Shown here: positions 9,688 through 44,505 of the stretch, in pieces
How the letters are laid out: every line of letters starts with the position of its first letter
Numbering within the stretch: the stretch's first letter is position 1
NCBI RefSeq assembly: GCF_900112405.1
Contig: NZ_FOLI01000004.1
Span: 1 to 64,000, forward strand
DNA: 64,000 nucleotides
Source: Fructobacillus durionis
GTDB lineage: Bacteria; Bacillota; Bacilli; Lactobacillales; Lactobacillaceae
Direction: 5' to 3'
Notes under the pieces: model-generated
Told to the model about the DNA's origin: nothing
Databases searched by the model: none
Seen by the model: the letters and a program-made list of their open reading frames with translations, nothing else
Translations under genes and position numbers: made by a program

Positions 9688-10797
9688 TTACATCATATCA
9701 AGGTGAAGGTCGTTTTCCTTAGTTAATCCTGCCTTCTTCAAGAAGAAGTAGAAGAACCAAGCGGCAACACCAGGTACAAGAACACCGAAGACCATAACAA
9801 GCATCAAAGCGTGTACGTTAGTACCAAGCAATGCCAATGGGGCAATCAATGAGTTCAATCCAAGACCGGCGATGGCGTAAGGAACCTTCAATTCGAAGAC
9901 ACCAACGGCAACCATGGCAGAAACACCAGCGATAAGGGCTGGACCGAAGAAGAGTAATGGGCTCTTCAACATGTTGGCAAATTGAACCTTAGGGGTAACG
10001 ATTGTTTGGGCAACGTTAGCACCCAAATCGTTTTGCGTGTAACCCATAACCGTATACATAACGAAAGCGGCAGTTGTTCCAACCAATGCGGCTCCACCTG
10101 AAAGTGGGTCCAACATAACGGCGATGGCAAGAGCGGCAGATGAAGCAGGGGTCATCAAGAAGGCGAACCAGAAGAAGGAAACGATGAAGGCTCCTAAGAA
10201 TGGGTTCACTGACATTGTGTCAGCCAACTTTTCTGAGATCCAGTTCAAGAAAGGCGTTGTATAAGTAGCAGCAACCAAACCAGTTAATGTACCAGTCAAA
10301 ACGGCTGCGAATGGCACCAAAAGCATGTCCAAGGCTGTCTTACCAGTCAAGTAGTTACCAACCAAAACGGCAACAACGGCTGCCAAAACGGCTGAAACTG
10401 GCTGACCAGAAGTCATGATGATTGAACCAGCTGGTTGGTTGGCTGCCCAGTGGGTCGCAGTGTGTGTGTTCGCAACGGCTGTGCTAGCAAAGTAAACGGC
10501 GTTTGATCCAACCGTTGCGGCAATCAATGCGGCACCGGTTGTCAAAACGGTTGAGTCCAAGGCCATGGCAACGCCGACCCCAAGGGCTGGGGCCAACATC
10601 TTTTGACCCATGGCACCGGCCTGCACCAAGGCAGGCAAGTGCAAGATGTTACCAAGGGAGCTGAGCAAGAGGCCCATTCCCAAAACGGACAAGATGGCGT
10701 ATGAGACACCTTGTGAAACAGCGTATACCGCTGACTTCTTCTTTTCTTGCGCAGGTTCTTGCGGGCGCGTATCCGCCTTTGTTAATGTTGCATCCAT
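9688..10797 (-). CDS. PTS_EIIC_2-family membrane permease, attenuator-controlled
   Basis: A 369-residue polytopic protein rich in Gly/Ala/Val helices (about ten predicted segments), resembling the PTS 'EIIC_2' family. No IIA or IIB domain or gene is nearby, so sugar phosphotransfer is doubtful. The start is the ATG at 10797-10795 (MDATLTKA), preceded by GGAGG at the right distance; an in-frame TTG at 10944 lies in the leader and is rejected. Upstream sit a strong promoter, an Ile/Val-rich leader peptide and a terminator/antiterminator pair, which suggests control by charged isoleucine tRNA and a substrate tied to branched-chain amino acids. That substrate is inference. The protein is probably in the cytoplasmic membrane. 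Confidence 0.82.
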   Translation of the reverse strand: MDATLTKADTRPQEPAQEKKKSAVYAVSQGVSYAILSVLGMGLLLSSLGNILHLPALVQAGAMGQKMLAPALGVGVAMALDSTVLTTGAALIAATVGSNAVYFASTAVANTHTATHWAANQPAGSIIMTSGQPVSAVLAAVVAVLVGNYLTGKTALDMLLVPFAAVLTGTLTGLVAATYTTPFLNWISEKLADTMSVNPFLGAFIVSFFWFAFLMTPASSAALAIAVMLDPLSGGAALVGTTAAFVMYTVMGYTQNDLGANVAQTIVTPKVQFANMLKSPLLFFGPALIAGVSAMVAVGVFELKVPYAIAGLGLNSLIAPLALLGTNVHALMLVMVFGVLVPGVAAWFFYFFLKKAGLTKENDLHLDMM

Positions 10798-10829
10798 TGT
10801 TACTTCCTCCGAAAATTCGTTCATGCCAA

Positions 10830-10856
10830 TAAAAAAACGCCAGGCAGCTGGCGTTG
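10830..10856 (-). terminator. Attenuator terminator in the leader
   Basis: Minus strand AACGCCAG..CTGGCGTT followed by seven Ts (read from 10856 down to 10830), about 33 nt before the ATG. Its 5' arm GCCAGCTGCC can instead pair with the upstream segment GGCTGGCAGC (about 10882-10891), giving a mutually exclusive antiterminator. Confidence 0.82.
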
Positions 10857-10881
10857 GTCTAAAGTCGTGGTTAATACGAAA

Positions 10882-10920
10882 AAAGAGGGCTGCCAGCCGG
10901 TGTTGTCTTTGCTGGCAGCT
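10882..10920 (-). promoter_or_regulatory. Attenuator segments 1 and 2 (pause hairpin)
   Basis: On the minus strand GCTGCCAGC (10919-10911) pairs with GCTGGCAGC (about 10890-10882). Segment 2 can alternatively pair with the terminator's 5' arm. This is the 1:2, 2:3, 3:4 layout of classical amino-acid attenuators. Confidence 0.75.
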
Positions 10921-10940
10921 AAAAAGGTGACCAGCATTTA

Positions 10941-11006
10941 TCAAATAATGATAATGCTAATCACAATGACGTTATTCAATTGAGTTGATTGCTTTGTAGT
11001 AGTCAT
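10941..11006 (-). CDS. Isoleucine/valine-rich leader peptide (21 residues)
   Basis: Minus-strand ATG at 11006-11004 with GAGGAG (11020-11015) as ribosome binding site; stop TGA at 10943-10941. The peptide begins MTTTKQSTQL and ends VIVISIIII, so eight of the last ten or so codons are Val or Ile, with four Ile codons just before the stop. That is the design of the ilv-type leader peptides whose stalled translation prevents termination. It has no expected function as a protein. Confidence 0.82.
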   Translation of the reverse strand: MTTTKQSTQLNNVIVISIIII

Positions 11007-11034
11007 AATCAATTCTCCTCGATTGGTTGTCTTA

Positions 11035-11063
11035 ACTATACTAAGATTAAAATTAAATGTCAA
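11035..11063 (-). promoter_or_regulatory. Promoter of the attenuated permease unit
   Basis: Minus strand TTGACA (11063-11058) and TATAGT (11040-11035) separated by exactly 17 bp, a near-consensus sigma-A promoter. Transcription should start near 11028, just ahead of the leader peptide. Confidence 0.85.
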
Positions 11064-11091: not shown

Positions 11092-11760
11092 TTAAATCAA
11101 CTCTGTTATTATCCATGAAAATAAGAGAAAAGGAAGAAAAGGTATTTTCCTTTTCTTTATCATTAAAGGAACGCAAATTAATGTCGAAAAAGTAGAGGCG
11201 AAAATGAAGTTGGTAAAAGCTTCTCCGTCAAACATAACTGCGGCCAAAACAAAGACGGGAAAATCGCCAACGCCCATTTTTCGTAAATAAATTAGAGGAA
11301 AGTTTAGTAGAAGAAAGAAAACTTTGAGCAGAATGAATACTGGTTCGTCATGTGATATTCCATCATTGAAAAATAGGAAGTAGGGAATAAGTAGCCAGAC
11401 CATATCGGTGTGTGCTCGCTCTTTTTGACTGTCTTCCCTAGCTAAGAAGAATAGGAAGAAGTGGAGGAAGTAGGCAGCAGACCATTGAAAGGGGATGGTT
11501 AGCATCAAAAGGGGAAAGAGTCCTTCGAAGAAAAGCCACTCCGAAACTGAGGTAAAGACTTGGCCACAGTTACGACAGCGAAACTTCAATATTGGAGCGG
11601 ATAGTAAAGGAATGAGATCATACCAGGCGAGGGGATGACCACAGTTAAAACAATAGGAGCGGCTTGTCCAAAGAGCCTGTCCTGATATTGCCCGATCTGC
11701 TAAACAGCAAATGAATGAAGCGAGCGTAAATTGTGTGATAATTAATAATATTTCTTTCAT
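11092..11760 (-). CDS. comC: Type 4 prepilin peptidase, ComC-like
   Basis: Membrane aspartyl protease of family A24 that cleaves and methylates pilin-like competence proteins. The N-terminal cytoplasmic domain has the two zinc-type CxxC pairs (CFNC about 37-40; CRNC about 62-65). The catalytic aspartates are visible in HTDMVWLLIP (about 118) and in GVGD (about 164-167), and the rest is hydrophobic helices. At 222 residues it is close to the family norm. No good Shine-Dalgarno precedes the ATG at 11760. It is alone, as comC usually is in lactobacilli; its presence implies a comG pseudopilus elsewhere. Confidence 0.88.
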   Translation of the reverse strand: MKEILLIITQFTLASFICCLADRAISGQALWTSRSYCFNCGHPLAWYDLIPLLSAPILKFRCRNCGQVFTSVSEWLFFEGLFPLLMLTIPFQWSAAYFLHFFLFFLAREDSQKERAHTDMVWLLIPYFLFFNDGISHDEPVFILLKVFFLLLNFPLIYLRKMGVGDFPVFVLAAVMFDGEAFTNFIFASTFSTLICVPLMIKKRKIPFLPFLLFSWIITELI

Positions 11761-44423: not shown

Positions 44424-44505
44424 CGGTATTGTTTACCTCACGATAAGCCCCGGAAACTTATTGTAACCGTTCGAGAAGGAACGCTCGAACATTGTAAACA
44501 ACTAA
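44424..44505 (+). promoter_or_regulatory. L13-type ribosomal protein leader
   Basis: A three-way junction can be drawn: closing stem ttgtttac (44429-44436) with gtaaacaa (44494-44501), and two hairpins cgataag/cttattg (44441-44463) and gttcgag/ctcgaac (44469-44490). Leaders in this position are known in Firmicutes to be autoregulatory L13 binding sites; that role is inferred here. Confidence 0.72.

Follow-up and report, generated by a model that had tools for sequence, protein, structure and literature searches.

A putative five-segment leader-peptide attenuator precedes a PF13303 permease that probably imports branched-chain amino acids

What does a membrane permease carry if its Pfam family bears the label of a sugar phosphotransferase component and its gene lies behind a short reading frame that ends in isoleucine and valine codons? 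This question is raised by a locus of Fructobacillus durionis, located within a stretch of 64 kb that is referred to as the window. The original prediction, made from the sequence alone, had read the locus as an attenuator following ilv-type logic and inferred that the permease may transport branched-chain amino acids or their keto acids. On balance, we consider it likely that the locus encodes a five-segment leader-peptide transcription attenuator controlling a permease for the import of branched-chain amino acids, chiefly isoleucine and valine in this case.

Inspection of the minus strand recovered the consensus promoter, the 21-codon leader ending in VIVISIIII before its stop codon, and the U-run terminator followed by the permease gene, all as initially described (Table 1). 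A translatable-looking short ORF with control codons thus lies directly downstream of a promoter, meeting, at the level of sequence signals, what an attenuator demands. When both strands of the window were filtered for ORFs with a Shine-Dalgarno sequence, an ATG, 12-35 codons and at least seven Ile, Leu or Val codons among the last ten, the leader ORF alone was returned. Dinucleotide shuffling of its 353-nt region produced a filter-passing ORF in 9 of 20,000 cases, with the filter having been defined only after the leader had been seen. Upstream on the same strand, a 222-aa gene (11092-11760), whose sole Pfam match is the prepilin peptidase N-terminal domain (A24_N), stops 28 bases short of the -35 box. 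On the plus strand, the window further holds a cluster of 14 tRNA genes (356-1644), located after the 23S end and 5S rRNA genes, and an Rfam L13 leader (44425-44504), a ribosomal protein cis-regulatory element.

Table 1 Features of the permease locus, in window coordinates.
Feature	Position	Strand	Basis or remark
Whole element (promoter to permease start)	10795-11063	-	all originally predicted elements present
Sigma-70-type promoter, TTGACA-17-TATAGT	11035..11063	-	11/12 consensus matches; consensus only
-35 box TTGACA	11058-11063	-	17-nt spacer to -10 box
-10 box TATAGT	11035-11040	-	consensus match
Shine-Dalgarno GAGGAG of leader ORF	11015-11020	-	sequence signal
Leader ORF MTTTKQSTQLNNVIVISIIII, ATG, 21 codons, TGA	10941-11006	-	terminal Ile/Val control codons; translation inferred from signals
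Segment 0, TGCTGG, partner of 1; segment 2 is free when 0:1 forms	10931-10936	-	100% of cells paired, 23 sequences
Segment 1, GCTGCCAGCA, partner of 0 or 2	10910..10919 (GCTGCCAGC = 10911-10919)	-	conservation, folding
Segment 2, CGGCTGGCAGC, partner of 1 or 3	10889..10899 (GCTGGCAGC = 10889-10897)	-	conservation, folding
Segment 3, AACGCCAGCTG, partner of 2 (antiterminator) or 4 (terminator)	10845..10855	-	conservation, folding
Segment 4, CTGGCGTT plus T-run, completes intrinsic terminator	10831..10843 (T-run 10831-10837)	-	folding, pairing
Stretch AACGCCAGCTGCCTGGCGTT	10836-10855	-	originally predicted element, present
Permease Shine-Dalgarno	10803-10810	-	sequence signal
Permease, 369 aa, PF13303 PTS_EIIC_2	9688..10797 (ATG at 10797)	-	222.5 bits, cut-off 28.9; probable importer of branched-chain amino acids or keto acids

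Four segments able to pair 1:2, 2:3 or 3:4 had been proposed downstream of the leader. The three pairings are indeed present, but the number of segments has to be revised to five, as the element that we term segment 0, which begins four bases past the leader stop codon, had been missed. Folding energies amounted to -16.5 kcal/mol for the 1:2 hairpin, -11.0 kcal/mol for the terminator hairpin, -17.3 kcal/mol for the 2:3 pairing and -10.4 kcal/mol for the pairing of segment 0 with CCAGCA (10910-10915), and were equalled by 0, 1, 2 and 4 of 200 shuffles, respectively. Antiterminator and terminator hairpins are mutually exclusive and the terminator lies upstream of the gene, again as expected of an attenuator.

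Pairing conservation was assessed on 23 clade-A sequences (see below), aligned from the leader stop to the terminator (alignment A1). Segments 0 and 1 paired in 100% and segments 2 and 3 in 91.8% of the aligned cells; absence of the latter pairing from relatives would have refuted the original prediction. Together, the two pairings of the antiterminator state were formed in 95.3% of cells versus 19-63% when slid. Shuffle tests were weak for this state (5 to 37 of 500 shuffles attained the observed values) and double changes were few (3), as is expected when each of segments 1, 2 and 3 is constrained by two partners. The terminator state (1:2 and 3:4) was paired in 92.2% of cells and comprised 42 double-change cells versus 15.8 in shuffles, with none of 500 shuffles as high. 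Further pair types were fewer than in shuffles (491 of 500 as high), the number of pairs showing two-sided change was ordinary (78 of 500 as high), and pair 34-65 was broken in 11 of the 23 sequences.

Folding of the window transcript up to segment 4 (ViennaRNA) yielded a minimum-energy structure with 0:1 and 2:3 paired when segment 0 was free, and one with 1:2 paired and segment 3 free when ten bases were masked to mimic a ribosome at the stop codon. By an ensemble criterion, a 10-nt mask after the stop switched 27 of 39 clade-A/B loci, the window included, from 0:1 and 2:3 towards 1:2, leaving 12 that fell short of the switch criterion; with the first 18 nt shuffled, the flip occurred in 15 of 195 cases. 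This locus set excludes a near-copy of the window (L007), L016, L070-072 and all clade-D leaders. A 4-nt mask, intended as a negative control, still flipped 24 of the 39 loci, which leaves the ribosome's exact reach unresolved. In the window itself, the masked ensemble retained some 2:3-class pairing (3.2 expected pairs versus 5.8).

Read against these folds, a scarcity of charged tRNA-Ile or tRNA-Val would cause a ribosome to stall within VIVISIIII, leaving segment 0 free to pair with segment 1. Segment 2 could then pair with segment 3, no terminator would form and the permease would be transcribed. With amino acids plentiful, a ribosome at the stop codon would be predicted to cover segment 0, in which case 1:2 and 3:4, followed by the T-run, would end transcription. 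It is the segment directly past the stop codon that seems to do the sensing. While anatomy, conservation and genomic association are matters of observation, the stalling, the read-through, the direction of import and the substrate are inferred from them.

To place the locus among its relatives, the permease was sought in 120 related genomes (75 with a match at E <= 0.001) and across 397 from the family (161 with a match at E <= 1e-30). The closest named permeases came from Fructobacillus sp. CRL 2054 (99% identity) and F. papyrifericola (85%). A tree of 90 chosen proteins separated the clade of the window gene, A/B (100/100), from a paralogue clade D (100/100), both nesting in a larger leaderless group of which three members have T-boxes. 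The tree omitted by hand 28 near-duplicate loci, edge-cut rows, L001, L003 and the loci from L114 onward, of which nine clade-D rows were added back; six of its labels were hand-set, three rows marked as leaderless (two from L030, one from L108) have twin rows with leaders, and the D2 leader of genus g39 was found only after the tree had been built.

An Ile/Val-rich leader, such as MKSLSSTNFTQVIKINVVIII, preceded all 24 evaluable clade-A orthologues (25 genomes were found, one of them unevaluable due to a contig edge), so that the leader codons are conserved in relatives, the check that the original prediction had proposed for itself. Together with the conserved pairings and the many two-sided changes in 1:2 and 3:4, this supports the ilv-type logic. 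Clade-B leaders, mostly mixed ones such as MTKTVMNNANNGLLLGLILDLIIIN, were present in 20 of 23 genomes; the three without (genus g11) lack a leader although an aminotransferase gene follows the permease. Leucine leaders, e.g., MTKNVQAHQNNALLLNLLLI, preceded the clade-D copy in 18 of 18 genomes examined of genus g16, which by kinship we take to be probably Leuconostoc. In a codon-position comparison aimed at selection on the leader within g16, 5, 9 and 7 of 12 columns vary at positions 1, 2 and 3, respectively. Clade-C members had no such leader by the filters used. Some leaders were added by eye after having been missed by one or another of the filters (L035, L103, L016/L070-072, L030/L108 and the D2 leader of g39), another (L062) was found in one leader survey and is missing from the later leader table, and two filter-passing ORFs (L020, L117) were judged spurious by eye. 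At L199 (G010:C9, about 660-1165), the clade-A permease is reduced to an internally deleted remnant of 98 aa that retains an Ile/Val leader (NVQISVVIII) and a terminator-like hairpin.

At the phylum level, the PF13303 family was present in 63 of 299 genomes. None of 30 such loci contained a T-box motif, an Rfam search on 20 of them gave no T-box, and the sole filter-passing ORF (L146) was judged spurious, leaving no convincing leader. A search of viral contigs returned no relative. A distant PF13303 member from another family of the order (L113, genome G108) has the leader MKTTTEAVNSRSQLNVSLVIINLLI, hinting that the branched-chain link may extend beyond Lactobacillaceae.

Leader codons are divided between paralogues. 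Each of the 34 two-copy genomes tabulated carries one Ile/Val-majority and one Leu-majority leader, and two different duplications each yield one Ile/Val-controlled and one Leu-controlled copy. One-copy leaders combine both codon kinds in 16 of 19 cases. A/B copies with at least two Leu codons made up 1 of 27 when partnered versus 16 of 17 when unpartnered (Fisher p about 7e-10, uncorrected for kinship). Tandem duplication of clade D itself was observed in genus g39 and in five Fructobacillus genomes that gave no clade-A hit, with a Leu leader (FALLLSLLMYS) on one copy and an Ile/Val leader (VIIIISLLNN) on the other; two further Fructobacillus genomes without a clade-A hit (G003, G009) have a single copy with a Leu leader. 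Excluded from the tabulation were G050, which is almost identical to G129, and G394, which is affected by a contig edge; G010 was included despite having only a remnant of the clade-A gene. ‘One-copy’ remains provisional because copy numbers mostly derive from scoring at most five candidates per genome. Such a split is expected if the codons follow the cargo of each copy, and leader codons may hence be readable for assigning substrates across paralogues.

Upstream of the window permease, no match to the Rfam T-box model (RF00230) was found. In genus g22, three of the four orthologous loci examined (L073, L074 and L081, but not L023) harbor a T-box motif 108-212 nt upstream of the assigned start. 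Its specifier reads CTC (Leu), as judged from its placement against the closing helix and from two GTC T-boxes used for comparison. Given that these T-boxes score 45-74 versus an Rfam gathering threshold of 93 and that their stem I departs from the consensus, confidence in the CTC reading is only moderate. A T-box with GTC was also observed after the clade-D copy in Fructobacillus (L004:2633-2861, L029, L032 and L035), a specifier for Val by position in L004 and L035. The gene behind it is of the ABC type, by eye a fusion of a polar amino acid binding protein with a permease, which makes for an unexpected pairing.

BrnQ is a known family of branched-chain amino acid carriers. Among 18 brnQ regions fetched, seven had a leader, four a T-box motif and seven neither; examples of the leaders are MNKNLTINSAVVVSVVIR (window genome) and MTYQSTTTEQIIISIIIIR (G064). 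The Val-/Ile-rich brnQ leaders lie at L148, L150, L152, L153, L156, L157 and L159; no report of brnQ leader peptides was found among the literature matches listed.

With respect to neighboring genes, a branched-chain aminotransferase follows the permease on the same strand, about 34-198 nt downstream, in 24 of 171 loci, and lies near it in nine more (upstream in seven, opposite in two). Its identity was supported by NCBIfam models NF009897 and TIGR01123, above cut-off, for four proteins and by tblastn for the others. With flanks of between about 0.3 and 1.5 kb, absence of the gene is not demonstrated at the remaining loci. One aminotransferase locus, L114, stems from another family of the order, at 34% identity. 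In 9 of 16 g16 loci, livJ starts about 30-45 nt past the Leu-leader (clade-D) permease, at L230 followed by two BPD_transp_2 permeases and two ABC ATPases, and eight of the livJ-bearing loci have brnQ and upp upstream. Regulation and neighborhood are thereby tied to branched-chain amino acids, the neighborhood in relatives rather than at the window's own gene, which lacks an aminotransferase neighbor. Leu leaders on the paralogue, the g22 T-boxes, the aminotransferase and LIV neighbors and the brnQ leaders all support the transport inference of the original prediction. Regulation and neighborhood do not prove cargo, however, and transport and expression are both inferred: the permease is probably a starvation-induced carrier of branched-chain amino acids, and possibly one of their keto acids.

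The keto acid variant is the alternative that survives best, even though we regard it as unlikely. It holds that the attenuator works as described, that branched-chain 2-oxo (or 2-hydroxy) acids are the cargo of the permease, and that an aminotransferase converts them to amino acids, with the end product being sensed. In its favor is the co-oriented aminotransferase right behind the permease. Genome content, which fits a need for uptake in the leading reading as well, bears on it too: strong matches to ilvC (>220 bits) and ilvD were detected in only two of 19 genomes (G064 and G056) and were absent from the other 17, and so from the window genome (93% complete). Weak hits (<=31 bits) in 15 other genomes were taken for other NAD-binding proteins, that of the window genome being a D-2-hydroxyacid dehydrogenase. 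Three genomes (G040, G018, G030) have the adjacent aminotransferase without strong ilvC/ilvD matches; a starvation-induced aminotransferase without the biosynthetic pathway would make sense only with keto acids from outside, as this arrangement suggests. The window genome has an aminotransferase gene elsewhere. It also encodes a third PF13303 paralogue, about 24% identical (L003:355-2592; G000:C11), directly after a D-2-hydroxyacid (D-lactate type) dehydrogenase gene and without a detected branched-chain leader, a pairing that coordinates suggest for several relatives.

Against keto acids, an aminotransferase query at E 1e-20 gave no hit in 3 of 29 genomes, among them two of genus g26 (G258, G120) that have a leader-controlled permease; there, keto acids could hardly be put to use, which favors amino acids in these genomes at least. 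The location of the Leu copy beside a LIV-type amino acid ABC system likewise counts against them. Other carriers are unevenly distributed, which again bears on the need for the permease: BrnQ was absent from 2 of 19 genomes (G027, G191) and from 9 of 23 further ones, the BrnQ-less set comprising G027, G191, G141, G235 and seven further g18 genomes, with APC-type permeases not excluded, and the LIV binding protein was absent from 18 of 22 genomes, including G027, G191, G141 and G254. We place amino acids ahead of keto acids as cargo, a choice that the evidence leaves open. Generalized to the family, the keto acid variant would make PF13303 proteins of Lactobacillaceae 2-oxo/2-hydroxy-acid permeases instead of sugar carriers, through which starving cells without the biosynthesis would, under an amino acid attenuator, scavenge branched-chain keto acids for amination by the adjacent aminotransferase, with the dehydrogenase-linked paralogue handling a related acid; this remains a doubtful extension.

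Less probable still is that the attenuator is real and the permease, merely coupled to branched-chain supply, has another substrate, for instance a sugar. The Pfam name PTS_EIIC_2 and the lack of a convincing leader in all 30 phylum-level family members would speak for it. The permease does match PF13303, and PF13303 only, so that part of the original description stands (with no match to BrnQ/LIVCS, PF05525); the EIIC label itself is unsupported in a small comparison, as hhalign against 14 classical EIIC domains (PF02378; small profile) returned a probability of 3.8 %. The earlier remark that no IIA or IIB partner is present was confirmed for the ORFs at 5-16 kb, based on Pfam for two neighbors (a ClpC-like ATPase and the prepilin-peptidase N-domain protein) and on inspection by eye for the others. 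A sequence-profile search of the PDB gave no relative at E up to 1, and an AlphaFold2 model from three near-identical sequences was useless (pLDDT 32). Moreover, leader codons split between copies as different substrates predict (34 of 34), and the T-boxes together with the aminotransferase and LIV neighbors indicate branched-chain metabolism. That the permease exports branched-chain amino acids, or exchanges them, seems very improbable: sequence cannot reveal direction, but a switch turned on by starvation in genomes without strong ilvC/ilvD matches fits import. Nothing was found in favor of leader ORF and hairpins being a chance arrangement before an unregulated gene, a notion that the rarity of such ORFs in shuffles and the conservation of leader and pairings in relatives allow us to dismiss.

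If the attenuator indeed controls a branched-chain amino acid importer, a Pfam family that bears a sugar PTS EIIC label gains a testable function, namely uptake of branched-chain amino acids (or keto acids). It also suggests leader-peptide attenuation in lactic acid bacteria to reach from biosynthesis to transport, that is, to PF13303 permeases and some BrnQ carriers. By inference, carriers of this kind could limit growth and shape aroma formation in lactic acid bacteria that seemingly cannot synthesize these amino acids.

The ilv attenuators of E. coli combine an ORF of branched-chain codons, mutually exclusive hairpins and an intrinsic terminator before the gene. Among the literature matches listed, we found no report of such control or function for the permease, subscription journals lying mostly outside the search; PF13303 is mentioned in passing in the available part of PMC6952197. 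According to the accessible portion of PMC5794164, S. aureus ilvD is preceded by an attenuator peptide with branched-chain codons; leaders of this type control biosynthesis genes in E. coli and Salmonella, with further ones predicted for L. lactis, Corynebacterium and Streptococcus. Histidine leaders are known in other bacteria (PMC9413887, PMC2965389; both available in part). As far as its available text goes, a T-box study from 2008 (PMC2494555) likewise assigned transporter substrates from regulatory codon specificity, naming ABC, APC, DAACS, LIVCS, MFS, NHAC and NSS transporters, with ‘EIIC’ absent from the main text as available; the g22 orthologues share its device, whereas the window uses a leader peptide. 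Comparable Ile/Val leaders, or T-box motifs, occur in 11 of 18 regions of BrnQ/LIVCS carriers (PF05525) from the same lineages; these carriers have the same presumed job, but no sequence match to the window protein. Classical PTS EIIC (PF02378) shares with it a Pfam family name and the nature of a membrane permease, without clear profile similarity in a small test and without IIA or IIB beside the window gene. The type of control device is known; the transporter assignment appears new in the literature searched. In common with the ilv-type attenuators of E. coli, L. lactis and S. aureus, the window has a short branched-chain ORF, exclusive hairpins and a terminator. Those attenuators control biosynthesis operons, whereas the one described here controls a transporter from a family not found linked to these amino acids, and its switch differs from theirs by an extra segment directly past the stop codon.
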